Below are positions 39,894 to 55,849 of a stretch of DNA of 64,000 nucleotides, piece after piece. A model generated the notes under the pieces. The model was given only the letters and a program-made list of their open reading frames with translations, was not told the origin of the DNA and did no database searches. Position numbers and translations under genes: made by a program. The first letter of the stretch is position 1; each line of letters begins with the position of its first letter. The stretch is from Paraglaciecola hydrolytica (lineage in GTDB: Bacteria; Pseudomonadota; Gammaproteobacteria; Enterobacterales; Alteromonadaceae), in contig NZ_LSNE01000003.1 of NCBI RefSeq assembly GCF_001565895.1, positions 1,036,380 through 1,100,379 of the forward strand, read 5' to 3'.

Positions 39894-41702
39894 TTAGCGC
39901 TGAAATATGCCTTTTACATGCTCTGCAAAAGGCCTTGCCTGCATAAAACCCGTAACACGAGCGGATTTAAGCTCTGCCCCTTGTTTATCAAAAAACAAAA
40001 TAGTGGGTAAACCAAGTACCGCAAAATGTTCCTGAAATGCTAGGTTGACGGGTGTGTTGTCAGTTAGGTCAATTTGCATCCACTCTGTGTTACCTAAGGC
40101 CTCTATCACGGCGGGATCGGGAAAAGTATATTTTTCAAACTCCTTACAGGCTACGCACCAGTCAGCATAAAGATCGACCATAACGGTCTTGCCTTCGGCG
40201 TTAGCTTTAGCAAGTTTTTGCTCAAAATCCTCAATACTTTTTACTAACATAAAATCTGGGTGCTCAGAGTTAGCAGACTGTTGATGTATGGTGCTGGTAA
40301 CAGACGCAACAGAAACTAACGGGGCAATAGAGCTATAGCCGTATAAAGCGGAAGCAAGCAGGCCGATAAAAATCAACATTACCCTGAGACCTTTAAAAAA
40401 GCTTGTTTTGCTATTGGCGTTCATCACATAAAAGTAGCTGAAAGCACACAAACCAAGTAAAGCCCAGGCTATATCAGTGGCAAAATGACTGACTAAACGT
40501 TCTACAAACATTAAGGCCACGGCTAACATCATAAAACCGAAGGTAACTTTAACTATATTCATCCAGTTACCGGCTTTAGGCAGCAGTTTTCCACCAGTAA
40601 TACCAAACAAAATAAGGGGTATGCCCATGCCTAAACTTAGGGCGTATAAGGCTGAAAAGCCTAAAAGCAAATCACCACTTTGGGCGATGAATAATAAAAT
40701 TCCAGTGAGTGGCGCTGTGGTACAGGGCGATGCAACTAAACCTGATATTGCCCCCATTACAAATACCCCAATATAACTACCACTTTTTTGTTGGTTGCTC
40801 ATTGAATTGAGTTTTTCTTGCCAGCTAGAAGGCATTTGCAATTCATAAGCCCCAAACATTACCACCGCCAATAAAACAAAAATGACGATCAAGCTGATTA
40901 AAATCGCCGGGTGTTGCAAGCTCGCTTGAAATTGCACCCCCGCCGAAGCAACTATCAAACCTAGGAGTGAATAAGTTAACGCCATACCTTGTACGTAAAT
41001 AAACGATAAACTAAAGGCGCGAGAGCTACTGATACCTTTACCCTGGCCAATAACTATACCGGATAAAATTGGGTACATAGGAAACACACAAGGGGTAAAC
41101 GCCAGGCCAATACCCAAACCTAAAAATAACAACAAGGTCCACATTAGGCTTTGTTCGCTGGTGAGTAAATCGGCTAATTCGAATTGTTGTGATACCGGTA
41201 CATCAGCTGTTGCTGTTGGAATTATTGGCTCAGCTGGGGGGGGAGTTTGTAGACCTGCCACTTCATTTAAATAAACAACTTTGATGGTTGGTGGATAACA
41301 TAGACCAGCATCGGCACAGCCTTGATATTGAATTTTAACCACACCATCCTGTACCGAATGAATAATGGGATAAGTAATGGCTACTTGCTGGCGAAATATG
41401 TCCGAAAGCCCAAAAAATTCGTCTTCAATTTGTTCTGAGACAGGGTAAGTTGGCTCCGCTAGTTCAGCATTTTTAACTACAGTCTTAAATTGTTTTTTAT
41501 ATAAATAGTAACCCTCGGCTACCGTCCAGCTCAGCACCAACTCATTATTATGCTGTTTAAAATCAAATTGAAAAGCCTCATCGACAGGCAAAAACTCAGG
41601 CTCTTCAGCAAACAGCTCACTGAAAGGGTCACCTTGCTGTGCAATGCTAGTCAGTGTGGTAAATAAGGCCAATAAAATCAGTAGTGGGCGAATCAATTTC
41701 AT
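39894..41702 (-). CDS. dsbD: thiol:disulfide interchange protein DsbD
   Basis: A 602-residue inner-membrane electron conductor that carries reducing power from thioredoxin to the periplasm. Signal peptide, N-terminal domain with the active-site pair C129 and C135 (GCADAGLCYPP), about eight helices with the membrane cysteine pair C205 (AFTPCVFPMYP) and C327 (SPCTTAPLTG), then the C-terminal thioredoxin domain with CVAC (C516, C519). Length fits E. coli (565). No cutA was seen next to it. It is upstream of a 328-bp gap. Confidence 0.95.
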   Translation of the reverse strand: MKLIRPLLILLALFTTLTSIAQQGDPFSELFAEEPEFLPVDEAFQFDFKQHNNELVLSWTVAEGYYLYKKQFKTVVKNAELAEPTYPVSEQIEDEFFGLSDIFRQQVAITYPIIHSVQDGVVKIQYQGCADAGLCYPPTIKVVYLNEVAGLQTPPPAEPIIPTATADVPVSQQFELADLLTSEQSLMWTLLLFLGLGIGLAFTPCVFPMYPILSGIVIGQGKGISSSRAFSLSFIYVQGMALTYSLLGLIVASAGVQFQASLQHPAILISLIVIFVLLAVVMFGAYELQMPSSWQEKLNSMSNQQKSGSYIGVFVMGAISGLVASPCTTAPLTGILLFIAQSGDLLLGFSALYALSLGMGIPLILFGITGGKLLPKAGNWMNIVKVTFGFMMLAVALMFVERLVSHFATDIAWALLGLCAFSYFYVMNANSKTSFFKGLRVMLIFIGLLASALYGYSSIAPLVSVASVTSTIHQQSANSEHPDFMLVKSIEDFEQKLAKANAEGKTVMVDLYADWCVACKEFEKYTFPDPAVIEALGNTEWMQIDLTDNTPVNLAFQEHFAVLGLPTILFFDKQGAELKSARVTGFMQARPFAEHVKGIFQR

Positions 41703-42030
41703 AGAACGGCAAGTCTCATTGTAGGCTTAGGTTTATCTAAATCAGATATTCCCCTCGCCATAGTTTGTATAAAAGGGTGCACTATAAAAGTGCCTGCTTA
41801 AGATTAACTTAAACAAATTAAGTGCTTCAAGTAATGCGCGCACTTTAGCGTCGCTTTAAGCCTGATCTCTGTTGTAACAAGAGTATCAGGCAGCGCAGAA
41901 AAACCCTACACAACTCGGACTTAATTGACCTGTAGAGCCTAAGATAAATTTCACTGTTTTAGCATTTACTATTGTTTGGCTTCTGCTTTAGCAATTATAT
42001 ATAGGTAGAAAGCAAAAACAGGCCACTAGG
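41703..42030. other. 328-bp gene-free region upstream of dsbD
   Basis: Both flanking genes run on the minus strand, so this holds the dsbD promoter and the end of the double-thioredoxin gene. No coding frame was accepted. It has a hairpin-like inverted repeat, GCCTGAT...ATCAGGC (41860-41866 / 41885-41891), with a further CTCT/AGAG pair and one bulged base. No T-run follows. Confidence 0.45.
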
Positions 42031-44806: not shown

Positions 44807-45310
44807 TTGGGAAAATTATTTTTTCTATTTGCTCTTTTACCCATTTTAGAAATCACCATTCTAGTTAATGTAGGTGAACAAATTGGTGGCTGGAATACGG
44901 TTGCGATAGTGATCGCTACGGCATTTTTAGGTGCGTATTTGGTTAGGCAACAAGGTTTAAGTACTTTACTGAGCGCGCAACAAAAAATGCAAACTGGCAC
45001 TATCCCAGGCCAAGAAATGGCCGAAGGTTTGTTGTTAGTCATATCGGGCGTGCTGTTGGTTACACCTGGTTTTATCACCGACATCTTTGGCTTTTTACTC
45101 TGTTTACCTTTCACGCGCCCCATCATCGCAAAAGCCTTGTTAAAACAAATGTCTTTAAAAGTGGTACAAGCAAGTGCTCAACAAGGACCTTTTTCGGGTA
45201 CACACTATCAGCAAACCTCATCATCAAATCCTCAGCAAGGTGATATCATTGAGGGTGAATTTGAAAATAAAGATGACCCGATTAAGCAAGGCTTAAGAAA
45301 ACCTGACTAA
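44807..45310 (+). CDS. fxsA: FxsA family membrane protein
   Basis: A 167-residue inner-membrane protein with a start TTG 44807 supported by GGAGG seven bases upstream. Two to three hydrophobic segments (KLFFLFALLPILEITILV, TVAIVIATAFLGAYLV, LLLVISGVLLVTPGFITD) and a C-terminal polar tail fit FxsA, which in E. coli relieves F-plasmid exclusion of phage T7. In many relatives fxsA lies next to groESL, which is not present here. The tail is Ser/Gln-rich. Confidence 0.9.
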   Translation: MGKLFFLFALLPILEITILVNVGEQIGGWNTVAIVIATAFLGAYLVRQQGLSTLLSAQQKMQTGTIPGQEMAEGLLLVISGVLLVTPGFITDIFGFLLCLPFTRPIIAKALLKQMSLKVVQASAQQGPFSGTHYQQTSSSNPQQGDIIEGEFENKDDPIKQGLRKPD

Positions 45311-45349: not shown

Positions 45350-45976
45350 ATGTTAAAACAATTGGTTATTGTTGGATGTTGTTTGCTGCATGCTGCCGGG
45401 CACGCGACAACAGATGACAAGGTTTCAGCCTTGTACAACGACTGGCAAGATTCAGCCATGTTTGTCAATCAGGAGCTGTATAAAAATCAGTTGGGCAGCT
45501 TAGTAAAACAAGCCCAACAACTTTGCCAAGACCACGTTGATAATCCACAAGCCTGTGCCTTAAGTGGCATTATGCAAACCCACTACGCGACACAAGTTAA
45601 TCATCTGCAAGGTTTAAAAGTGGCTAAACAAGCCCGCGATGATTTACAACATGCCTTATCACTTGACCCCTTGGTTTACCGCGGCGAAGCCTATGCCGAG
45701 CTTGGTACCTTGTACCATCAAACTCCGGGTTGGCCATTTTCTTTTGGCAGCCAAGTGATGGCAGAGCGATTATTGCGTAAAGCTTATGAAGTTGAGCCAG
45801 ATGGTTTAATCAGTAATTTACGTTTAGGCGAGTTTTTATTTGACCAACAACGCTACCCTGAAGCCCAACACTATTTGCAACAGGCCGTGGACGTTGCGCG
45901 TCTGGAGCCACAACTATCAAGGTTAGAATTCCAGCTCATACAGGCTAAACAACGGTTGGCCAAAATACAGCACTAA
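45350..45976 (+). CDS. secreted TPR-repeat protein
   Basis: A 208-residue protein with signal peptide to about residue 19. TPR-like helical repeats are seen in ALSLDPLVYRGEAYAELGTLY, AYEVEPDGLISNLRLGEFLF and AQHYLQQAVDVARLEPQL. Probably periplasmic, and a scaffold or partner protein. It is 70 bases upstream of the response regulator and on the same strand, so it may be part of the same transcript. Confidence 0.75.
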   Translation: MLKQLVIVGCCLLHAAGHATTDDKVSALYNDWQDSAMFVNQELYKNQLGSLVKQAQQLCQDHVDNPQACALSGIMQTHYATQVNHLQGLKVAKQARDDLQHALSLDPLVYRGEAYAELGTLYHQTPGWPFSFGSQVMAERLLRKAYEVEPDGLISNLRLGEFLFDQQRYPEAQHYLQQAVDVARLEPQLSRLEFQLIQAKQRLAKIQH

Positions 45977-46046: not shown

Positions 46047-46709
46047 ATGCGAATACTGCTTGTTGAAGACGATATGCAACTCGCCAGAGGCTTACACCAG
46101 TCACTGCGGGCTGAAGGATTTACCGCTAATCATGTGAATAATGCCAAGTCAGCTTGGCTGACAATTCAAACCAACGAATGTGATATGTTAATCCTTGATT
46201 TGGGTTTGCCAGATATGGATGGACTGAGTCTGTTAAAAAAAATTCGTCAGCATAACTTGCGACTGCCTGTGCTCATCTTAACCGCCCGCGACTCCATGGA
46301 AGACAAAATTAAAGGCCTTGATCAAGGTGCAGATGATTATTTAAGCAAGCCTTTTGATGTAAATGAATTGATTGCGCGCTTGCGGGTAATTGAGCGGCGT
46401 TTAGGCACGGCCACCAGCAGTGTGATTGTGATCAATCAAGTTAGTTTAGATCTCGCTGCGCATCAGGTTACCTTGGATAAACAACTCCTCGATGTGCCAC
46501 GTAAAGAGTTTATGGTGTTAAAAGTATTGATGGAACAAGCCGGTCGAATTCAGTCCCGTGAGCAATTAGAGTCAAAACTCTATGAGTGGGGTGAAGAAGT
46601 GGCGAGTAATGCCATTGAAGTCCACATTCATCACTTACGTAAAAAACTACCGGATGGCTTTATTAAAACTATTCGTGGGGTAGGTTACAGTGTTGCTAAA
46701 GGTCAATAA
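46047..46709 (+). CDS. OmpR-family response regulator (QseB-like)
   Basis: A 220-residue regulator. The receiver domain has the acidic pair E7-D8-D9 and phosphoacceptor D51 (ILDLGLPDMDG). The winged-helix DNA-binding domain has VPRKEFMVLKVLMEQAGRI and the SNAIEVHIHHLRKKL recognition segment. Its partner kinase follows after 3 bases. It probably regulates the cupredoxin and permease genes of the same cluster. Confidence 0.9.
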   Translation: MRILLVEDDMQLARGLHQSLRAEGFTANHVNNAKSAWLTIQTNECDMLILDLGLPDMDGLSLLKKIRQHNLRLPVLILTARDSMEDKIKGLDQGADDYLSKPFDVNELIARLRVIERRLGTATSSVIVINQVSLDLAAHQVTLDKQLLDVPRKEFMVLKVLMEQAGRIQSREQLESKLYEWGEEVASNAIEVHIHHLRKKLPDGFIKTIRGVGYSVAKGQ

Positions 46710-46712
46710 GCC

Positions 46713-48038
46713 TTGTCTATCCGCCGCTACCTGACTCTTATACTCATTTCGGTTATTACCCTAGTGACCTTTGCCTCGGCAATTCAAGGTTATCGTAGCA
46801 GTATGCTCAAGGCTGCCACGGTGTTTGACGATGAACTGTATGCTTTGGCTCTAGTTTTGTCGGCCACGGTATCGACAGTTCAACCTGCTCTTAGCTTCGA
46901 TGAGACGGCGTTTACCTATCAAGTTTGGCAAGATGAACAATTACTCTTAAGTTCCAATGCCCGTTTAACTTCACCCATAGCGGCATTTCAGCAGGGTTTT
47001 AGTGAAAGTAATTTTTTAGCCCAGCGCTGGCGCACTTACAGCCTTTGGTTAACAGAGCAACAACGCTGGCTTATTGTTGCCCAGCCTCTTAATCGACGTT
47101 TTGAACTGGCAGAAAGCGTGATTTTGGCCGCTGTGACCCCGCTTATTTTGTCTATAGGGGTACTGGCTGTGCTGACTTTTTGGATCATCAGTGCCGGTTT
47201 AAAACCACTAAATTTATTATCTGAAGCACTACAAGAAAAAAAGGCCGATGACTTACGTCCTCTCCCTGCCGTGCCTCAGGCGGCAGAATTGGTGCCGGTT
47301 GTGGATACGCTAAATCAACTGTTTGAGCGTTTAGATGGCGCATTTATGCGCGAAAAACGTTTTGCGGCTGATGCCGCCCACGAACTTCGAACGCCACTGA
47401 GTGTATTAAAAATTAACGCGCATAATTTAGCGCTGGAATTAAAACACGATAGCCAAGCCCAATGTAACATGGACTTTTTACAGCAAGGCATAGAGCGCAT
47501 GAGCCACGTTGTTGAGCAGATTTTATTATTAAACCACACCAACCCTGAGCAGTACCGCGGCAATTTTGTCAGTTTGGATCTCAATGCATTGTGCCAAACG
47601 GTGATTGCGTCGATTTACCCACAAATTGCTCAAAAACAACAAGAAATTGAACTGCTTGGGGGGACCGAAGCTATTGTTGGTGATGAGTTTGCACTTGGCA
47701 TATTGCTGCAAAATCTTATTTCAAATGCCAGCAAATATACGCCTGCGGCGGGGTTAATCAGAGTCACTTTAGCTACTCAGCAAAACACACCTGTAGTGCG
47801 GATTGAGGATTCGGGCCCAGGTATGGAGCCAGCAGAATATGAACGTGTGTTTGAGCGTTTTTATCGCATTGGCGGTGACAGGCATGCCAGCAATGTTGCT
47901 GGTTGTGGTTTGGGATTAGCCATCGCCAAACATATTGCTCAATTACATAAGGCGCAGTTGCAACTGAGTCACTCTGCAGACCTAGGTGGTTTAGCAGTGG
48001 ATATACTCTTTGCAGCTCGGGGCAATACTCATGTTTAG
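46713..48038 (+). CDS. sensor histidine kinase (QseC/PmrB-like)
   Basis: A 441-residue membrane kinase. Start is TTG 46713, 3 bases after the response regulator stop. It has two membrane helices (about 7-25 and 137-160) around a 110-residue periplasmic sensor, a short linker, HisKA with H223 (AADAAHELRTPLS) and HATPase with NLISNASKY, EDSGPG and GCGLGLAIAK. The periplasmic domain has no metal-binding cluster that I can see. Stop overlaps the cupredoxin gene by 8 bases. Confidence 0.9.
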   Translation: MSIRRYLTLILISVITLVTFASAIQGYRSSMLKAATVFDDELYALALVLSATVSTVQPALSFDETAFTYQVWQDEQLLLSSNARLTSPIAAFQQGFSESNFLAQRWRTYSLWLTEQQRWLIVAQPLNRRFELAESVILAAVTPLILSIGVLAVLTFWIISAGLKPLNLLSEALQEKKADDLRPLPAVPQAAELVPVVDTLNQLFERLDGAFMREKRFAADAAHELRTPLSVLKINAHNLALELKHDSQAQCNMDFLQQGIERMSHVVEQILLLNHTNPEQYRGNFVSLDLNALCQTVIASIYPQIAQKQQEIELLGGTEAIVGDEFALGILLQNLISNASKYTPAAGLIRVTLATQQNTPVVRIEDSGPGMEPAEYERVFERFYRIGGDRHASNVAGCGLGLAIAKHIAQLHKAQLQLSHSADLGGLAVDILFAARGNTHV

Positions 48039-48381
48039 ATTGTTTATCAGCTTGCTGCTTGCTTTTTTCAGCTCTTCGCTGTGGGCGATTAGCGAATATC
48101 ATCTGGAAATTAAAGATCATTTGTTTTTTCCTTCACGTATTACTATTCCCGCTGGTCAAAAAGTAAAACTGATAATCCATAATTTAGATGAAACACCTGA
48201 GGAGTTTGAAAGTTTTAGTTTAAACCGTGAAAAAGTGATTTTTGCTCAAAGCCAAGCGGTTATTTTTATTGGTCCTTTAAAACCGGGCGAATACGAGTTT
48301 GTTGGAGAATATAATCCTAATTCCGCCCGTGGCTCTGTGGTGGTTATTTTAGAAAAGGCGGGAGACGGCAATGTTGATTAA
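48031..48381 (+). CDS. cupredoxin-domain periplasmic protein
   Basis: A 116-residue exported protein from ATG 48031, which follows GGGGCAATACTC. An in-frame TTG at 48010 would put residues before the signal peptide MFRLFISLLLAFFSSSLWA. The fold is the Cupredoxin_1 group linked to iron permeases, seen in PSRITIPAGQKVKLIIHN, PEEFESFSLNREKVI and GPLKPGEYEFVGEYNP. The usual His in EFHP is replaced by Asn here (EYNP, N95). It overlaps both the kinase and the permease genes, so translation is coupled. Confidence 0.82.
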   Translation: MFRLFISLLLAFFSSSLWAISEYHLEIKDHLFFPSRITIPAGQKVKLIIHNLDETPEEFESFSLNREKVIFAQSQAVIFIGPLKPGEYEFVGEYNPNSARGSVVVILEKAGDGNVD

Positions 48382-49147
48382 TACCGTCATCTTGTTTTTG
48401 CGTGATGCTTTGCCGATCTTTGTGCTTCTGGGTTTAGTGTTGGCGCAGGTGCGTATAAGTTTCAATATGCTGTGCACGGCATTGATTAGTGGACTTTTAC
48501 TGGCCTTGGTTTTTATCCGTCAAGTGGATAGTTTAGGCTCGATGTTTGAAGGTGCAGGTATCGAGATAAGTTTATGGCTATTAAATGTTGCTCTCTACTT
48601 TGTGGTGCTAATGCTGGGCCATTCGCTGGTAAAAACCAATAAGGCTTTCTGTAAACCCCAATGGCTGGCATTGGCTTTGATCGTTCTCATCATTATTGCC
48701 AAAGGCAGTAACTTTTTATTGTATTTTGATGGTTATCTTAATCAAGCCAATGCTCTGCAATCGATGTTTTTAGGGATCTTACTTGGTGCAGGCATTTGTT
48801 TGAGTCTGGCCGTATTGTTATTCTTTTTTGTCACGGCGCTGCGCTCTCGTTTTGGCTGGTCAGCGCCACTGTTAGTGTTATTGATTTTTGCCTCAGGGCA
48901 ATTGATCAACGCTTTGAATCTGTTGGTGCAAGTTGATTTACTGCCTACATCATCGGTTGTATGGGATAGCCAATGGTTGATTGATGATGAATCTGAATAT
49001 GGGCATTTATTAAATGTGCTCATTGGTTATGTCGCCACCCCATCAAGGATACAAGTAGCCATTTATCTAGCTGCGATTGTGCTGCCTTGGTTTTATTACC
49101 AAAAACTCAAGGGGTTTTCTCATTTTTCAAGAGGTAATACTCTGTGA
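48371..49147 (+). CDS. FTR1-like permease with degenerate REXXE motifs
   Basis: A 258-residue membrane protein with about seven helices in the plan of the FTR1/EfeU iron permease family. The C-terminal helix has VWDSQWLIDDESEYGHLLNVLIGYVATPS (positions 197-225), and G61-x-G-I-E65 fits the loop near helix 3. The first REXXE motif is replaced by RDALP (11-15), and the second region is AKGSNFLLYF (110-119), so neither has the Glu pair that binds Fe. It may transport another ion or act in signalling. Coupled to its neighbours. Confidence 0.78.
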   Translation: MLINTVILFLRDALPIFVLLGLVLAQVRISFNMLCTALISGLLLALVFIRQVDSLGSMFEGAGIEISLWLLNVALYFVVLMLGHSLVKTNKAFCKPQWLALALIVLIIIAKGSNFLLYFDGYLNQANALQSMFLGILLGAGICLSLAVLLFFFVTALRSRFGWSAPLLVLLIFASGQLINALNLLVQVDLLPTSSVVWDSQWLIDDESEYGHLLNVLIGYVATPSRIQVAIYLAAIVLPWFYYQKLKGFSHFSRGNTL

Positions 49148-49851
49148 ACATTTTACGTTTAATTTTTATACTTGGGCTGAGTTTATTAGGCTTTGCCGAG
49201 CAAGTTTGGGCTGACGGTAATCCCGTCGATAAGGTTTATCATCCGCGGGTAGTAGCGAATGAGCGTAAGTTTGAATGGCGCTTTGCATCCCGGCAAACGA
49301 GTGAAGAAAATGTCCTAGCGCAGCGTTTTGCCTATGGACAGGCTTTGACTGAATATCTCATAGTCGAGGCCTATATTAGTGGCGAGCGTGACGAAACTGA
49401 CGATTATGGTTTGCAGGGTTATGAGTTAGAAGCGCGTTATATGTTGACCGAACAAGGGCAGTACTGGGCAGATTGGGGAGTGTTAGTTGAATTTGAAAAA
49501 CAGCATGATGAGGGCAATTACGAAATTACCACCGGACTCCTATTTGAAAAAGAGTTTACTCATACCAGTTTAACCATGAATGCCTTATTGGTATATGAGT
49601 GGGGAGATAGCATAGATAAAGAGTACGAAACGGAATTCAGATTACAATATCGCTATCGTTTTATGCCTGAGGTTCAGCCTGCAATCGAGATTTATACCGG
49701 CGAAGATTTTGTCGGTATTGGTCCTGCCTTTATGGGCGTGCACCGCTATGAGGGGATCAAACAATTAAAATGGGAACTGGCCTTTATCTCTGGGTTAAAC
49801 GGAAAAGGTAAAGATCACACTCTGCGTTTTGCTTTAGAATATGATTTTTAA
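49144..49851 (+). CDS. small outer-membrane beta-barrel protein of the permease cluster
   Basis: A 235-residue protein with signal peptide to about residue 23, then alternating beta strands (KFEWRFASRQT, LIVEAYISGERD, YELEARYML, LTMNALLVYEWG) and a C-terminal Phe (LRFALEYDF) typical of outer-membrane barrels. It starts at GTG 49144, overlapping the permease stop (GTGA), so it belongs to the same operon and could supply a pore for the substrate. Family not recognised. Confidence 0.75.
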   Translation: MNILRLIFILGLSLLGFAEQVWADGNPVDKVYHPRVVANERKFEWRFASRQTSEENVLAQRFAYGQALTEYLIVEAYISGERDETDDYGLQGYELEARYMLTEQGQYWADWGVLVEFEKQHDEGNYEITTGLLFEKEFTHTSLTMNALLVYEWGDSIDKEYETEFRLQYRYRFMPEVQPAIEIYTGEDFVGIGPAFMGVHRYEGIKQLKWELAFISGLNGKGKDHTLRFALEYDF

Positions 49852-50016: not shown

Positions 50017-50427
50017 ATGAAAAAATCAATTGTTCTATTCACAGTGTTAATCACTAGTGCCGCCAGTGCGACCGCACACACGCTGACTTTAGCTGAAAAA
50101 AATAAAAGCTATGCAGAATTTGTACAAGCAGAAAAGCTTAGTGACATTGATAATATACGCAGTTTTAGGTACACAGGTTGGAAAGCTCTTTCTGACGATT
50201 ACCTAGTAATCACCAATACTAAAAAAGAAGATTACTTGATTGAGTTCAAATCAAGATGTTTAGGCTTGAGCAAAGCAAAAGCTGTCAAACTAAATCGTTT
50301 TTCAGACTCAAGCCTAAGCAGCCAATACGATACTGTATCTGTTGTTGGACCAGCAGCTGAAACCTGTCGAATTGAGTCAATTTATCCTATCAGTGCCGAG
50401 CAATCTCTTACCTTATCTAAGGTATAA
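50017..50427 (+). CDS. small secreted DUF6491-like protein
   Basis: A 136-residue protein with signal peptide cleaved near ASATA. The mature part has IDNIRSFRYTGWKALSDDYL, TKKEDYLIEFKSRCLGL and ETCRIESIYPIS, which fits the small DUF6491 group with two conserved cysteines (SRCLGL and ETCRI) likely forming a disulfide. Function unknown. It stands alone. Confidence 0.68.
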   Translation: MKKSIVLFTVLITSAASATAHTLTLAEKNKSYAEFVQAEKLSDIDNIRSFRYTGWKALSDDYLVITNTKKEDYLIEFKSRCLGLSKAKAVKLNRFSDSSLSSQYDTVSVVGPAAETCRIESIYPISAEQSLTLSKV

Positions 50428-50911: not shown

Positions 50912-52852
50912 ATGTTGTTACAGCGTTTTAGATTATGTGTATTTGTTGGTTTTAGTATGGTTTTTTTATCATCCTGTGGTAGTTCTGGTGGGCAAGCTGC
51001 AACACCGGTAATACCGCGACCGCCATCTGTGCCAACGCCTCCACCTGCTCCAACACCACCCACTACACCAGTGAATAGTGATATTCCAAGTGGTGGCGAT
51101 CTGGTAGTTACAAGCAGTGAAGCCTTAAACCCCGTCACACATCTTGGTAATGCGAATAACCCTGCCGCAAAAGTCACTGTGGTGGCGGCAACTCATGAGC
51201 ATTTTAGTCAAGCATTGAAAGTAGAAGTGCTAAACCCAGGTGGTGAGTTTTGGGATGGTCAAATTCTGATCCCCTTAAATAAAGCGGTGGCAAAAGATGA
51301 TGTGATGTTGGTGCATTTGTATTTTCGTACTACCAAAACTCTATCCGAAACCGGTAGCGGTTTTACCACGGTGTTTATGGAAGGCCCTGCACCTGATTAC
51401 ACTAAGTATATGGTCAGAGAAATTATCAGCGATAGCGAATGGCAAGAATACCTCATCCCAGTACAAATTGGCCAAGCCTTCGCCAAAGGTGGTATACATT
51501 TAAAGTTTGGCCTAGGCGCAGGTGATAAGGCACAGACTTATGAAATTGGCGGCATCGAGTTATATAACTATGGTGCATCCAAAGAATTGTCGAGTTTGCC
51601 CAAAACTGAATTAAGTTACGAAGGTCGTGCACTCGATGCAGCTTGGCGCGCAGATGCGTTAGAAAGAATTGAAACCCATCGTAAAGGGGATTTTAATTTA
51701 ATCGTCAAAAATAGTGAGGGCCAACTTGTAGCTAATGCTGATGTTAAGCTTGAGTTTGTACGTCATGCCTATCACTTTGGTTCTGTTATCGCTGCTGGAA
51801 AATTATTAGAATCATCAGATGACGGCGATAAATATCGTCAAACCCTACTTAAGTACTTTAATCAGTCTGGTACTGAAAATGACTTAAAATGGGCGCCTTG
51901 GGCGGGTGAATGGGGCTCGTCATTTAACCAGCAACAAACACTTGAAGCATTGACGTGGCTTAAAGATAATCAATTTTATACTCGTGGTCACGTATTGGTG
52001 TGGCCCTCAAAACGCAACTTACCTAATTTAATGCAAGAGTATTTGCCAGAAGATTTCAGTCAAGCGGATCCGGCGGCTAAACAAGTTGTACTGGATCATA
52101 TTGACGACATCACCCAAAAAACCAGTCAGTATTTGGATGAGTGGGATGTGTTAAATGAGCCTTTTGATAACCATTATTTGATGGACGCCTTTGGACAGCC
52201 AGTAATGTTAGATTGGTTTAATCAGGCACGTATTAACCTGCCAGAACACGGCTTGTTTATTAACGATTATTCAATTTTATCTGGTGGTGGACGCAATGCA
52301 CCTCATCAACAACATTATGAGGATACTATTCGTTATTTAGTCGACAATAATGCCCCAATTACCGGCATTGGCTTGCAAAGTCATTTTGGTGAAAACCTGA
52401 CGCCAATGAACACCTTGTACAACTTGCTTGATCGTTACCATAGTGCTTTTCCTGAACTTGCCATTCGCGCGACGGAATTTGATATCAATACCAAAGATGA
52501 ACAGTTACAGGCCGACTATACCCGTGATTTCCTTATTTTATTTTTTAGTCACCCTGCTACTGTCGGTGTGCAGCTTTGGGGCTTTTGGGCGGGCCAACAC
52601 TGGTTGCCTGAAGCGGCGATGTTTACTCAAGACTGGCAGGTAAAACCCAATGCAGAGGCTTGGTATCAATTGATCTATCAACAGTGGTGGAATAATTTTA
52701 GTGGTACAACAAATGACGCCGGCACGTTTGCTGAGCGCGGATTTTATGGTGATTATCAAGTTACCGTAACAGTGGGTGAAACCAGCAAAATGTTTGATAT
52801 TACTGTGACAAAAGGACAAATAGCTAATTTTGAACTGGTAATGGATCACTAG
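50912..52852 (+). CDS. GH10 endo-1,4-beta-xylanase lipoprotein
   Basis: A 646-residue lipoprotein with lipobox LSSC (C22) and a Pro/Thr linker (30-55). A carbohydrate-binding-like beta-sandwich (about 65-220) precedes the GH10 barrel (about 280-620). The acid/base Glu is E416 in DVLNEPFD and the nucleophile Glu is E522 in RATEFDINTK. HVLVWPSK is the substrate-binding loop. A short C-terminal beta domain follows (from AERGFYGDYQVTVTV). It likely cuts xylan at the cell surface. No xylan utilisation genes are adjacent. Confidence 0.92.
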   Translation: MLLQRFRLCVFVGFSMVFLSSCGSSGGQAATPVIPRPPSVPTPPPAPTPPTTPVNSDIPSGGDLVVTSSEALNPVTHLGNANNPAAKVTVVAATHEHFSQALKVEVLNPGGEFWDGQILIPLNKAVAKDDVMLVHLYFRTTKTLSETGSGFTTVFMEGPAPDYTKYMVREIISDSEWQEYLIPVQIGQAFAKGGIHLKFGLGAGDKAQTYEIGGIELYNYGASKELSSLPKTELSYEGRALDAAWRADALERIETHRKGDFNLIVKNSEGQLVANADVKLEFVRHAYHFGSVIAAGKLLESSDDGDKYRQTLLKYFNQSGTENDLKWAPWAGEWGSSFNQQQTLEALTWLKDNQFYTRGHVLVWPSKRNLPNLMQEYLPEDFSQADPAAKQVVLDHIDDITQKTSQYLDEWDVLNEPFDNHYLMDAFGQPVMLDWFNQARINLPEHGLFINDYSILSGGGRNAPHQQHYEDTIRYLVDNNAPITGIGLQSHFGENLTPMNTLYNLLDRYHSAFPELAIRATEFDINTKDEQLQADYTRDFLILFFSHPATVGVQLWGFWAGQHWLPEAAMFTQDWQVKPNAEAWYQLIYQQWWNNFSGTTNDAGTFAERGFYGDYQVTVTVGETSKMFDITVTKGQIANFELVMDH

Positions 52853-52872: not shown

Positions 52873-53781
52873 TTAGCGATAACACCAAAACTGTAGGTTT
52901 TGCTCTTGTAAAAAGGCTTCAGCTTGTTGGCCATGCAATAAAGCCAGTGTGGCCAACAAACCTGCTTGAATACAGTGGGGAGCGGCAACGGTAACTGAGC
53001 GTGGGGCATTCATGATCGGATAGCCAGTTTTAGGGTTAAGGATATGGCTATAACGTACACCATCTTTGATTAAGAAACGTCGAGCATCGCCACTGGTTGC
53101 CAATCCGCCATTTTTAATTTTAAGGATCTTAATTGCTGCTTTTTCATCAGCCAGACTTTCAATACCGATATGCCAATCTTGCTGGTTTTTTCTGGGTTGA
53201 GTCACTTGTATGTCACCACCAAAATTAACCACTATTGAGGTATCAGGTGCTTTAAGCTGACAAAGTTTAGCCACACAATCCACTGCGTACTCTTTGCCTA
53301 TACCGCCTAAATCCAATTCCATGCCCTTGGGCATTTGTATGGTTTTATGATCAAACCGCACTTTAGACCAGCCAATTAAGGGCAGTAGCTTATTAACCGC
53401 TTGCGTAGAGGGTATACGTTCAGAGCCATCAAAAAGCCAAGCCTGACGCAATATACCAGAGCTCAAATCAAACATGCCGTCACTTAACTCATAACAAGTT
53501 TGCGCAAAGCTTAATAGTCGATACGTTTCGTCATCAATAACCACAGGGCTGCCGATGGCGTGATTGATTTGGTAAAGAAGATTATCCTTTTGATAGCGAC
53601 TGAATTTATGTTCGATGCGTTTACTTTCTTGCCACGCCAACAAAGTAAGCTGTTGAGCTAGCTCGTGATCTTGAGTTTCAATTAATAATTCACAGGGGCT
53701 GGCCATAGCCGTAAAACGACCACAGTAGTGGTCGTTTTTGGCTTCTATGCTAAAGGCGTTTATTGTGTTGTTGGCTAACAA
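52873..53781 (-). CDS. apbE: ApbE-type FAD:protein FMN transferase
   Basis: A 302-residue ApbE family protein, which attaches FMN to Thr or Ser of target proteins. It has AMASPCELLIE, ELSDGMFDLSSGI, the flavin-site DLGGIGKEYAVD (157-168), LATSGDARRF and SHILNPKTGYPI. Two oddities: no signal peptide is visible and the gene has only 48 bases before it, and the usual metal-site Asp of the DAxAT motif appears as G274 (AGLLAT), although T278 is kept. It is the last gene of the TlpA-DUF4266-DUF3570 cluster. Confidence 0.88.
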   Translation of the reverse strand: MLANNTINAFSIEAKNDHYCGRFTAMASPCELLIETQDHELAQQLTLLAWQESKRIEHKFSRYQKDNLLYQINHAIGSPVVIDDETYRLLSFAQTCYELSDGMFDLSSGILRQAWLFDGSERIPSTQAVNKLLPLIGWSKVRFDHKTIQMPKGMELDLGGIGKEYAVDCVAKLCQLKAPDTSIVVNFGGDIQVTQPRKNQQDWHIGIESLADEKAAIKILKIKNGGLATSGDARRFLIKDGVRYSHILNPKTGYPIMNAPRSVTVAAPHCIQAGLLATLALLHGQQAEAFLQEQNLQFWCYR

Positions 53782-53829
53782 ACTACTTCCTGTCGATTAA
53801 GCGTGGGTAATGGAGCAAGATAAACCAGC

Positions 53830-55131
53830 TTAAAAGCGATAGCTAACTTGTGCAATTACTGCTTTAACGGTGGGATATAGTTCCATGTCTTGCAAAACAC
53901 CCGGTTCATCAAATCCTGCATTTTTTGGACTTTGTTGATAATACTCAAGTCTAAAAGACAGTTCATCACCATTGTCCAATTCCATGCCGTATTTTAAGCC
54001 TAGGGTATAGGCGGTCATTTCTCCCAGTCGATAGTCTGCGCTAGCAAACTCGGGCAGCGTTTCGCCTTCCTGCATAAAAGGCTGAAAGAACTCTGCCGCT
54101 GCTTGTTGGTAGTAACGAAAATGTGGCTGAATATAGGTGGTGTCCGACAGATTAATGCGTAAACGTGAATCTATGGTATGTGAATCTATTTTCCAATCAT
54201 CAGTGGCAAAACGATAGGAAATATCCGCCACACCAAAATCCATGGCATATTTTGTCTGCCAGTAAAAACTATGGCGAGTACGCGTATCGGGTCTGTTTTC
54301 GTAAACTAAACTTTGGGTTAAACCTTGTTCATCCACTACAGATAAATATTTAAAGGGATCGTTGGTATAACCGTCTACCGTGGATAAACCATAATTAAAC
54401 TGCATTAATAGTCGGCGATTAATGACTTGGGTCAGCCCCAGCATTACATCAAGGGTATTTTTGCTATCTGAGTCTGTTGCCCGCGTGCTGTTGTAATTAT
54501 CTTCGAATTCAGTGCTGTCTTCTTGCTCAGGATTGGGGTTAAATGCCACCGTAGCAAGTGCAAGAGGAATACCTCCTTCAGGTTTTATGGTGTCTAAGGC
54601 ATAAGACAAGCCGAGTGACAGAGTGGTATTTTTCTGATTTAAGTCATAAGCCAATGAGCCATTTAGCGCAAAAGACAAATAGTCATATTCATTAGAAAAC
54701 TGTAGTCCACCACTAGCACGTAAATCCTGCGCAATAGGCTGAGTCCACTGGGCGTTGAGCTGTAACCTAGTATCATGAAAGGTATCATCCAAGGGCGTTT
54801 CACCAGCGGCAATCTCATAGTTGCCATTACCTGAAGGGCGGGTAAAGGTTTGCGCTGTAGGTTGTGCTACTGCCCCTGTCGCTGACGCGCCAGTCAAACC
54901 ATCTATGGTAAGTTTGCCACTAAAAATATGTTCGTCACCAAAGTCTTTTGTGGCGGCAATCACACCCTCAACCGCCGTCACGCGATCGGTTTCACCGTAA
55001 TACATTAGCGCAGTATCAAATTTCCATAACTCAGTATTCTCTTCTGCTTGTGCCGCTGTGACTCCTAATAGTGCACAAGTAGCTGTTGCAAGTACCGCAC
55101 TGATATTGATTGGTTTATGACTTAATTGCAT
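53830..55131 (-). CDS. DUF3570 outer-membrane barrel with flavinylation-like motif
   Basis: A 433-residue protein from ATG 55131. GGAGG lies 6 bases before that ATG, while the TTG at 55137 overlaps it. Signal peptide to about residue 29 (GVTAAQA). The DUF3570 core is a beta-barrel with strands such as LSLGLSYALD and LSFRLEYYQQSP and ends with VSYRF. Residues 77-83 read DGLTGAS (D77, T80, S83), close to the Dxx(S/T)GA(T/S) motif used by ApbE. It overlaps the DUF4266 gene by 10 bases, so translation is coupled. Function unknown. Confidence 0.85.
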   Translation of the reverse strand: MQLSHKPINISAVLATATCALLGVTAAQAEENTELWKFDTALMYYGETDRVTAVEGVIAATKDFGDEHIFSGKLTIDGLTGASATGAVAQPTAQTFTRPSGNGNYEIAAGETPLDDTFHDTRLQLNAQWTQPIAQDLRASGGLQFSNEYDYLSFALNGSLAYDLNQKNTTLSLGLSYALDTIKPEGGIPLALATVAFNPNPEQEDSTEFEDNYNSTRATDSDSKNTLDVMLGLTQVINRRLLMQFNYGLSTVDGYTNDPFKYLSVVDEQGLTQSLVYENRPDTRTRHSFYWQTKYAMDFGVADISYRFATDDWKIDSHTIDSRLRINLSDTTYIQPHFRYYQQAAAEFFQPFMQEGETLPEFASADYRLGEMTAYTLGLKYGMELDNGDELSFRLEYYQQSPKNAGFDEPGVLQDMELYPTVKAVIAQVSYRF

Positions 55132-55346
55132 CCGCAACCTCCGCCAGCAAAGGCTCTACCACCACTAGTGGCTTCTTTACTGAAATAGATATGATCATCT
55201 AAAGCTAAATCGAGTTTTTCAGCATCTAAGGCCATTTCATCTTTGGCGAGTAAATCTCTCTCCCAAGGTTGTACACCTAAACTGGCGCAACTAGCGAGCT
55301 GAATTAATAATAGTGAGGCAAAGATTTTTACGATTTTTGACTGCAT
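55122..55346 (-). CDS. DUF4266 small lipoprotein with GGCGCN tail
   Basis: A 74-residue lipoprotein with lipobox LASC (C20) and the DUF4266 pattern PWERDLLAKDEMALD, followed by LALDDHIYFSKEAT and the terminal Gly/Cys tail GGGCGCN. The family is always small and linked to DUF3570 proteins. The two C-terminal cysteines may bind a metal or carry a modification. Its last codons (GGA GGT TGC GGA TGC AAT) contain the ribosome site and start of the DUF3570 gene. It lies 5 bases after the TlpA-like gene. Confidence 0.85.
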   Translation of the reverse strand: MQSKIVKIFASLLLIQLASCASLGVQPWERDLLAKDEMALDAEKLDLALDDHIYFSKEATSGGRAFAGGGCGCN

Positions 55347-55351
55347 TTGAT

Positions 55352-55849
55352 TTACTCCATTTCTGCCAAAAGATAAGTTATTTCTTGTTCATACTGTTGT
55401 TGTTTTGCACTAAAAAAACCTTGGTGGGTAAAACGTATTTGGCCTTTTTTATCAATAAGATAACTGCTGGGCATGCCGACCAAGGCATAAGCGCTGGCAA
55501 TAAGCCCTTGAGGGTCATAGATGATGGGCATGATGGCGGGTACCTTAGTTAAAAACGTTGCAGCTAGCTCAGGTTCGACATCAAGGTTAATAGCTAAAAT
55601 TTGCAAACCTGCGTCAGCATGTTTTTGCTGCATAGCATTCATCCATGGAAAAGATTTCCGGCAGGGTTTGCACCAACTCGCCCAAAAATCTACATAGACA
55701 ACTTTGCCTTGTAAGTCTTGTAAGGTGCCGGTGAGTTGCGGGGTATTAATGGTGAAATTTGTTGCCGGTTTGAGCTCTGTTACAGCATGAGCAGAGTCTG
55801 TCGTTAACAACAAGCAACTTAGGAGTAGTGAATAGATAATGAAGCGCAA
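55352..55849 (-). CDS. TlpA-family thioredoxin-like protein
   Basis: A 165-residue periplasmic thioredoxin. Signal peptide to about residue 22, then TINTPQLTGTLQDLQGKVV, active site FWASWCKPCRKSFPW and the cis-Pro loop LVGMPSSYLIDKKG. It is the first gene of the DUF4266-DUF3570-ApbE cluster and may keep the Cys tail of the DUF4266 protein reduced. The arcA terminator lies upstream of it. Confidence 0.9.
   Translation of the reverse strand: MRFIIYSLLLSCLLLTTDSAHAVTELKPATNFTINTPQLTGTLQDLQGKVVYVDFWASWCKPCRKSFPWMNAMQQKHADAGLQILAINLDVEPELAATFLTKVPAIMPIIYDPQGLIASAYALVGMPSSYLIDKKGQIRFTHQGFFSAKQQQYEQEITYLLAEME

Follow-up and report, generated by a model that had tools for sequence, protein, structure and literature searches.

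An FTR1-like permease without REXXE motifs in a conserved operon with a cupredoxin, a predicted outer-membrane barrel and a two-component system of Paraglaciecola hydrolytica and its relatives

This analysis concerns an operon in a 64,000-nucleotide stretch of the Paraglaciecola hydrolytica genome (contig NZ_LSNE01000003.1, positions 1,036,380 to 1,100,379; the whole stretch is referred to below as the window). The operon encodes an FTR1/EfeU-like permease that lacks both REXXE motifs, together with a periplasmic cupredoxin, a predicted outer-membrane barrel and a two-component system. All of its genes lie on the plus strand. Those for a response regulator of the OmpR type (46047-46709), a sensor histidine kinase (46713-48038), a cupredoxin of the FtrB/EfeO type (48031-48381; Cupredoxin_1 at 1.6e-27), the permease (48371-49147, assigned by profile and alignment) and a predicted beta-barrel of 235 residues (49144-49851) are contiguous, with overlaps or a 3-base gap between neighbors, and the barrel gene has a GTG start that overlaps the permease stop. 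The kinase has 2CSK_N, HisKA and HATPase_c domains, with HAMP below its cut-off. The best NCBIfam models for the regulator were PmrA (score 243.9, cut-off 330) and then QseB (200.7, cut-off 345), and those for the kinase were QseC (214.7, cut-off 475) and then PmrB (191.3, cut-off 314), all four being below cut-off. Further upstream are a gene for a tetratricopeptide repeat (TPR) protein (45350-45976; TPR_19 at 1.2e-5) and a PmrA/QseB-like box, ATTAAG-N5-CTTAAG (45281-45297, plus strand), with one mismatch to YTTAAG-N5-YTTAAG. Because the box stands before the TPR gene, that gene is probably the first of the operon in this genome. A TPR homologue was found in front of the regulator gene in 42 of 88 loci.

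The permease has RDALP at residues R11-P15 (48401-48415) and AKGSN at residues A110-N114 (48698-48712). In alignments, these columns are occupied by REVLE- and REGSE-type motifs in related cupredoxin-permease-barrel operons. The permease shares ancestry with the FTR1/EfeU family, judging from profiles and alignment. A profile search, proposed in an earlier note on this DNA, gave no match to Pfam FTR1 (PF03239) even at an E value of 10, and a weak match to the NCBIfam EfeU model (NF041756; 2.7e-8, 33.7 bits) that is far below the curated cut-off of 255. PF03239 at E values up to 1 matched only 4 of 45 relatives. Hydropathy alone gave six clear helices in the window permease; the FTR1/EfeU permease fold has seven membrane helices.

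To describe the extent of the motif loss we used the permeases of loci L032-L109 and L140-L252 together with that of the window, a total of 192 sequences. A permease was found by profile in 187 of these (L155, L165, L170, L171 and L172 were dropped), and after trimming, with identical proteins counted once and the window included, 158 distinct permeases remained. Both motifs were gone in 129 of these (hereafter motif-less) and both were kept in 29 (hereafter intact); exactly one motif was never seen. The intact set comprises 28 operon relatives, all with both motifs and used for most of the residue counts, and locus L105, which likewise has both. The replacement of the motifs that had been noticed in the window is therefore not due to chance or sequencing error, since neither motif is in its place in any of the 129 distinct proteins of the clade. 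Residue 15 is Pro in 126 of the 129 motif-less proteins versus Glu in all 28 intact ones, and Arg or Lys at residue 110 is found in none of the 129 versus 26 of 28 (Cys or His in the other two). The second-motif glutamates E111 and E114 are both present in 28/28 intact proteins, while motif-less proteins have mostly Asn (67), Lys (18) or His (18) at 111, with Gln, Asp, Arg and others also occurring, and Asn (44), His (28) or Glu (16) among the residues at 114. Regarding the four motif acids, 24 motif-less proteins retain none, 79 one, 25 two, and a single protein three. The claim that the first motif had been replaced was overstated, in that only half of it is gone: Arg or Lys remains at residue 11 in 102/129 and an acid at residue 12 in 104/129.

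The motif-less clade has also gained conserved residues of its own. In addition to P15 these are N4 (121/129 versus 5/28 intact) and acids at 206 (124/129 versus 17/28) and 209 (114/129 versus 0/28), the latter two represented in the window by the loop D206-E-S-E209 (48986-48997). An acid at residue 65 is present in all 129 motif-less proteins and Q187 in 127. The WDxSWLL...GY..PS segment was correctly described in the earlier note as kept (W198 in 104, G219 in 129, Y220 in 119 and P224 in 125 of the 129). Intact REXXE motifs that had merely shifted were sought with a pattern search of the 129 motif-less proteins, and nothing was found at either motif region. An RExxE sequence occurs in three of them (REKSE) and [RK][DE]xx[DE] in 14, all ending in SE and aligned at residues 205-209, a loop that precedes the last helix and lies at neither motif. 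Three of the four order-level loci from outside the family are intact (L289, L290 and L291), and the fourth, L292, is motif-less. A match to PF03239 was present in 37 of 196 genomes of the family, mostly in frames of 616-713 residues, with a few weak or representing the motif-less gene itself (e.g., in genome G145); some family genomes thus encode both the motif-less protein and a longer one of the FTR1 type. PF03239 had no match elsewhere in the window genome.

The operon is widespread in the Alteromonadaceae. A match to the window permease was present in 89 of the 196 family genomes, a few of these being fragments or weak, and 78 loci were fetched with their flanks from the 89. A survey for the same five-gene order, as the earlier note had suggested, showed that the order from regulator to barrel is conserved in the window and in 77 of the 78 fetched loci (including L063, which has a short regulator frame). 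The single exception is L105, in which a canonical FTR1 protein (RESIE, REGAE) adjoins the cupredoxin. The genome with L105 (G057) also has a motif-less copy in a five-gene operon (L050), and the L105 cupredoxin belongs to the same family. Of 369 class-level genomes, 35 had a match to the barrel profile, as did 20 of 295 order-level genomes. Among named barrel-profile loci, taken as the best 80 of 215, the closest relatives by barrel are from Paraglaciecola. Peptide patterns of the window permease scanned over genome contigs found no relatives.

The regulator and kinase genes are adjacent on the same strand for 129/129 motif-less permeases versus 10/29 intact ones (L158, one of the 19 intact cases without a linked kinase, is cut by a contig end). 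In a tree of the barrel and cupredoxin with 105 rows (27 intact and 78 motif-less; the 80 named barrel-profile loci were not included), all motif-less rows fall into a single clade with a support of 99 in the Shimodaira-Hasegawa-like approximate likelihood ratio test (SH-aLRT). When this tree is rooted on the intact row L153, the ten intact operons that have a linked kinase join the motif-less clade with a support of 99, and intact operons that have none come next, with 98. A tree of the permease made without the motif columns again shows the motif loss as one change (98). We take the intact state to be ancestral on the ground that other FTR1 proteins have REXXE too. Both trees place the motif loss on one change, and in the rooted tree it nests inside the clade of kinase-linked operons.

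The motif-less permease is under purifying selection. The ratio of nonsynonymous to synonymous substitution rates (dN/dS) was determined for 29 pairs of closely related motif-less operons, no operon being used in more than one pair; 28 of the pairs were unsaturated for the permease, whose median was 0.131 and maximum 0.335. The medians for the cupredoxin and barrel over the same set were 0.090 and 0.045, respectively. At regulator identities of 0.55-0.65 (2290 motif-less and 30 intact pairs, which are not independent and for which the reference, the regulator, lies within the same operon), identity was 0.276 in motif-less versus 0.413 in intact pairs for the permease, 0.465 versus 0.58 for the cupredoxin, and 0.544 versus 0.436 for the barrel. 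From these sequence comparisons, the permease looks like a protein with changed constraint and not one in decay.

The best solved relative of the window cupredoxin is FtrB (8VUK; 2.6e-15 with the sequence alone, 2e-19 by profile). The FtrB crystal structure has E84, E86, E93 and D119 as Mn1 ligands and D118/H121 as a proposed Cu pair (PMC11966278). The Mn1 ligands align with E58, E60, E67 and E93 of the window cupredoxin, and all four places are acidic in 27/27 intact and 123/128 motif-less operons (L105 was left out of the cupredoxin counts, and no cupredoxin was found in L161). The earlier statement that all metal motifs of the operon had been replaced does not hold, as the cupredoxin keeps four acidic ligands of the Fe(II)/Mn(II) type. 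The proposed Cu pair aligns with G92/N95 and is not kept in the window; intact operons also have Gly at the first place (23/27) and Asn at the second (17/27), and the pair is described as incompletely conserved between FtrB clusters (PMC11966278). We rejected EYNP, which had been taken as a sign that the cupredoxin diverged together with the permease, as a mark of co-divergence. This is because it is one of several tetrapeptides at its place (EYHP 36, EYNP 31, EFNP 20 and EFHP 20 of 128 motif-less; EFNQ 5, EFNP 4, EFYP 4, DFNP 4, and others 10 of 27 intact, with no EFHP), and does not track the motif loss. EYNP says nothing on the change in the permease, and the ligands are kept. The proposed co-divergence survives in so far as a permease diverted from canonical iron transport, with sensing among the options, fits the data; for the cupredoxin, a turn toward another ion is not supported, given its ligands, although this protein does evolve faster in the motif-less clade. 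The cupredoxins shown in a study of copper in Alteromonas belong to copA clusters (PMC8478169).

A coupled outer-membrane barrel had also been suggested for this operon, and the predicted fold of the last gene product supports it. The AlphaFold2 model, made with 30 aligned sequences, has one N-terminal helix and 12 strands, with a mean predicted local distance difference test (pLDDT) score of 92 and a predicted template modeling (pTM) score of 0.82. The N-terminus is signal-peptide-like, the strand number is even and the C-terminus, LEYDF, ends in an aromatic residue. No Pfam family (E values up to 10) or NCBIfam family (up to 1) matched the barrel; the distant member L158 matches Phenol_MetA_deg, which we take to be a barrel family, just below its cut-off. 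In 9 of 28 intact loci (L154, L159, L160, L162, L163, L164, L166, L168 and L169), all with intact REXXE motifs, a single open frame of 515-526 codons encodes both the permease and the barrel. The joint is a hydrophobic run resembling a signal peptide, and by eye it ends in A-x-A directly before the barrel in 7 of the 9. Due to this resemblance it is plausible that the fused proteins are cut after export, and internal translation starts may also exist within the fused frames. In L161, an intact locus, the barrel gene is broken by a stop, and its contig has a second match of equal score at a distance of 20 kb. FTR1-type iron uptake is, to our knowledge, usually drawn without an outer-membrane partner. 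The four- and five-component Ftr systems described in the available part of one source likewise have no barrel (PMC11966278). The lineages in which barrel and permease share one frame suggest that FTR1-type iron uptake may have such a partner.

Within 250 bases before the first gene, 37 of the 88 operons have TTAA-N7-TTAA, often as CTTAAG-N5-CTTAAG. This site was found in 27 of 46 operons led by the regulator gene and 10 of 42 led by the TPR gene, versus means of 1.4 and 0.5 and largest values of 4 and 3, respectively, in 200 single-base shuffles. Spacings of 4, 5, 6, 8, 9 or 10 in place of 7 were found in 0-5 operons. The half-sites of the PmrA box in Salmonella are also five bases apart (PMC3973317). 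Based on the enrichment and this spacing, the linked regulator likely controls its own operon, and another regulator of the PmrA/QseB type in the cell could bind the box. By mismatch count the single window site is not significant (43 window matches at up to two mismatches, 36 expected). We also sought a regulon by exact box in the window genome, and this was dropped, as there were 10 matches versus 6 for the reversed control. A dsbD-like gene on the minus strand (39894-41702; named by reading of its translation) has one exact TTTAAG-N5-CTTAAG 95 bases in front of it, at 41797-41813, approximately 4 kb before the operon; genome-wide, exact boxes are not clearly above the control.

The glutamates of the REXXE motifs are regarded as necessary for iron handling by FTR1 proteins. 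Canonical Fe(III) conduction by the motif-less permease is therefore unlikely, because those glutamates are gone. The REGLE form of the motif has been called iron-binding in a study of fungal FTR1 proteins (PMC8065604). We tentatively hypothesize, at somewhat less than even odds, that an iron-uptake module captured a two-component system and that its permease then lost canonical iron conduction to become an accessory sensor. The starting point would have been a module of the Fe(II)-uptake type with an FtrB-like cupredoxin, an FTR1-like permease and an outer-membrane barrel, and one lineage would have acquired a link between this module and a two-component system resembling PmrAB/QseBC. A single later event, at the base of the Alteromonadaceae or close to it, would have removed the two REXXE iron relays from the permease; the acidic metal site of the cupredoxin would have stayed, and constraint on the barrel would have risen in comparison with the other proteins of the operon. 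The present system would be a metal-state sensor with an output, in which the cupredoxin would bind periplasmic Fe(II) or a similar divalent ion. The former permease, probably no longer conducting Fe(III) by the known relay, would hold the cupredoxin at the inner membrane and relay its binding state to the neighboring kinase, in the manner of UhpC. The regulator would act on the CTTAAG-N5-CTTAAG boxes before its own operon, and the barrel may serve as a controlled outer-membrane port or partner. We prefer an accessory sensor because the cupredoxin site is kept, selection on the operon is purifying, a kinase is linked to every motif-less copy examined, and self-control is probable. That the whole family made an iron permease a non-conducting receptor once its operon had captured a two-component system, in an envelope-spanning chain from barrel through ferrous-binding cupredoxin, former permease and kinase to regulator, with the ancestral transporting form surviving in sister lineages, some of which make permease and barrel as one polypeptide, is a broader proposal that we consider rather doubtful.

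Several points weigh against a sensor. The role of the linked two-component system may be no more than regulation of the operon, an arrangement found for many transporters, and linkage alone does not imply sensing, since ten intact operons are kinase-linked too. Kinase contact, sensing and loss of transport are all deduced here from sequence, and R/K11, the acid at 12 (104/129), the acid at 65 (129/129) and Q187 (127/129) could line a path. The analogy with UhpC needs no loss of transport, because UhpC itself can transport. Boxes stood before 36 of the 78 motif-less operons and before only one (L149) of the ten kinase-linked intact ones, and as 36 of the 37 boxes belong to motif-less operons, the operator may be younger than the kinase link. 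The window box is imperfect by one base and precedes the TPR gene, and its genome shows no clear enrichment of exact boxes. The cupredoxin also evolves faster in the motif-less clade (0.465 versus 0.58 at the regulator identities given above), and its second ligand there is mostly Asp (EDEE in 112/128) where intact operons have Glu, the window having EEEE. The trees were quick ones made without bootstraps, with long branches flagged (L149, and in the permease tree L104, L105, L092 and L102), and the identity comparison has the dependence among pairs noted with it.

An explanation that follows closely behind the accessory sensor, and to which we give an appreciable but smaller chance, is that the permease was re-tooled to move an ion or small metal complex, other than Fe(III) by REXXE, with the two-component system only regulating expression. 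The path might then include Asn, Lys or His at 111, Asn or His at 114, D12, E65 and the acids at 206 and 209. The polar or basic residues in place of the second-motif acids, the conserved acids that arose in this lineage, the persistence of purifying selection and the retained cupredoxin ligands would all fit such a transporter, and the barrel could give it an outer-membrane route. However, the former motif positions vary widely in the clade, unlike a selectivity filter, and the permease changes fastest of the three proteins.

Normal import of iron, with acids elsewhere replacing REXXE, is improbable. Acids do remain at 65 (129/129), 206 (124), 209 (114) and D12, [RK][DE]xx[DE] is found at 205-209 in 14/129 proteins, the iron ligands of the cupredoxin are kept, and no Pfam FTR1 protein is encoded elsewhere in the window genome. 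Against this are P15 (126/129), the absence of R/K110 (0/129) and the position of 206/209 in the loop before the last helix. The genome may or may not have other iron uptake; its best FeoB_N match is at 4.2e-44, in a frame of 297 residues, and this GTPase fold is widespread. Slightly more improbable still is a permease whose only role is to scaffold the barrel or help in its assembly, and which takes part neither in ion handling nor in sensing. The single frame of permease and barrel in 9/28 intact loci and the greater constraint on the barrel in the motif-less clade point in that direction, but a scaffold would not require a cupredoxin with its ligands kept, and the signal-peptide-like segment in the fusions suggests that the parts separate after synthesis. 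A decaying remnant, drifting after loss of function, would account for the lost motifs and the lower conservation than in intact operons but can be dismissed with near certainty, since the median dN/dS of 0.131 excludes gene decay, the best match is stop-free in 88 of 89 genomes, one loss is common to 129 distinct proteins, and new conserved residues have appeared.

The components of the operon are of known kinds, namely an FtrB-type cupredoxin, an FTR1-like membrane protein and a PmrA/QseB-type system. The FtrABCD systems of Brucella, Bordetella and Burkholderia likewise have the FtrB cupredoxin beside an FTR1-type permease (FtrC), and the four Mn1/Fe ligands of FtrB are conserved here. Unlike FtrABCD, the window operon has a linked barrel and two-component system and a permease without REXXE. 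At the proposed Cu pair, D118/H121 of FtrB correspond to G92/N95 in the window, a difference that is common in intact operons too. PF10634 (P19/FtrA-type) had no match in the window genome at an E value of 0.001, and no FtrD candidate was present among the seven window proteins scanned, the rest of the genome not having been searched for FtrD. The permease is homologous by profile to EfeU/Ftr1 (PF03239, NF041756) and shares the GY..P segment; it differs from them in having neither REXXE and in scoring below the curated cut-offs. A lack of the REGLE motif has been reported for LcFTR1 IV of the fungus Lichtheimia corymbifera (PMC8065604). That protein is one fungal paralogue, whereas the present case is a family-wide bacterial operon.

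UhpC and DcuB are transporters that stimulate a histidine kinase, and UhpC itself can transport (PMC7096432). They resemble the operon in having a transporter-type membrane protein with a kinase and regulator, the resemblance here being one of gene linkage only, and they are of different protein families from the window permease. PmrAB/QseBC are the best models for the window regulator and kinase, and the spacing of the PmrA box matches CTTAAG-N5-CTTAAG. In contrast to PmrAB/QseBC, the window pair is below the equivalog cut-offs and is encoded with a cupredoxin, permease and barrel. We know of no cupredoxin or barrel in the UhpC and DcuB systems. In the open-access literature, which was searched without coverage of subscription papers, no paper was found on the operon, its barrel, the in-frame fusions or the loss of REXXE in the kinase-linked clade. 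Nor did that literature yield the gene combination or a mention that REXXE was lost only once inside that clade.

REXXE motifs are the hallmark of FTR1 proteins, and the large motif-less clade, in which the operon, the metal site of the cupredoxin and purifying selection all persist, represents a natural test of the role of the motif, with the closely comparable intact sister operons as controls. If the permease is indeed an accessory sensor, it would represent a conversion of a transporter to a receptor, and a tree would give the order of the steps.

Directly after the barrel gene, at 50017-50427, the window encodes a DUF6491 protein (3.1e-24), of which a homologue was found in none of the 78 fetched loci. 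Further downstream, by reading of the translations, are a GH10-like xylanase-type lipoprotein (50912-52852) and, on the minus strand at 52873-55849, an ApbE-like flavin transferase, a large outer-membrane-like protein and a TlpA-like redoxin in a row.

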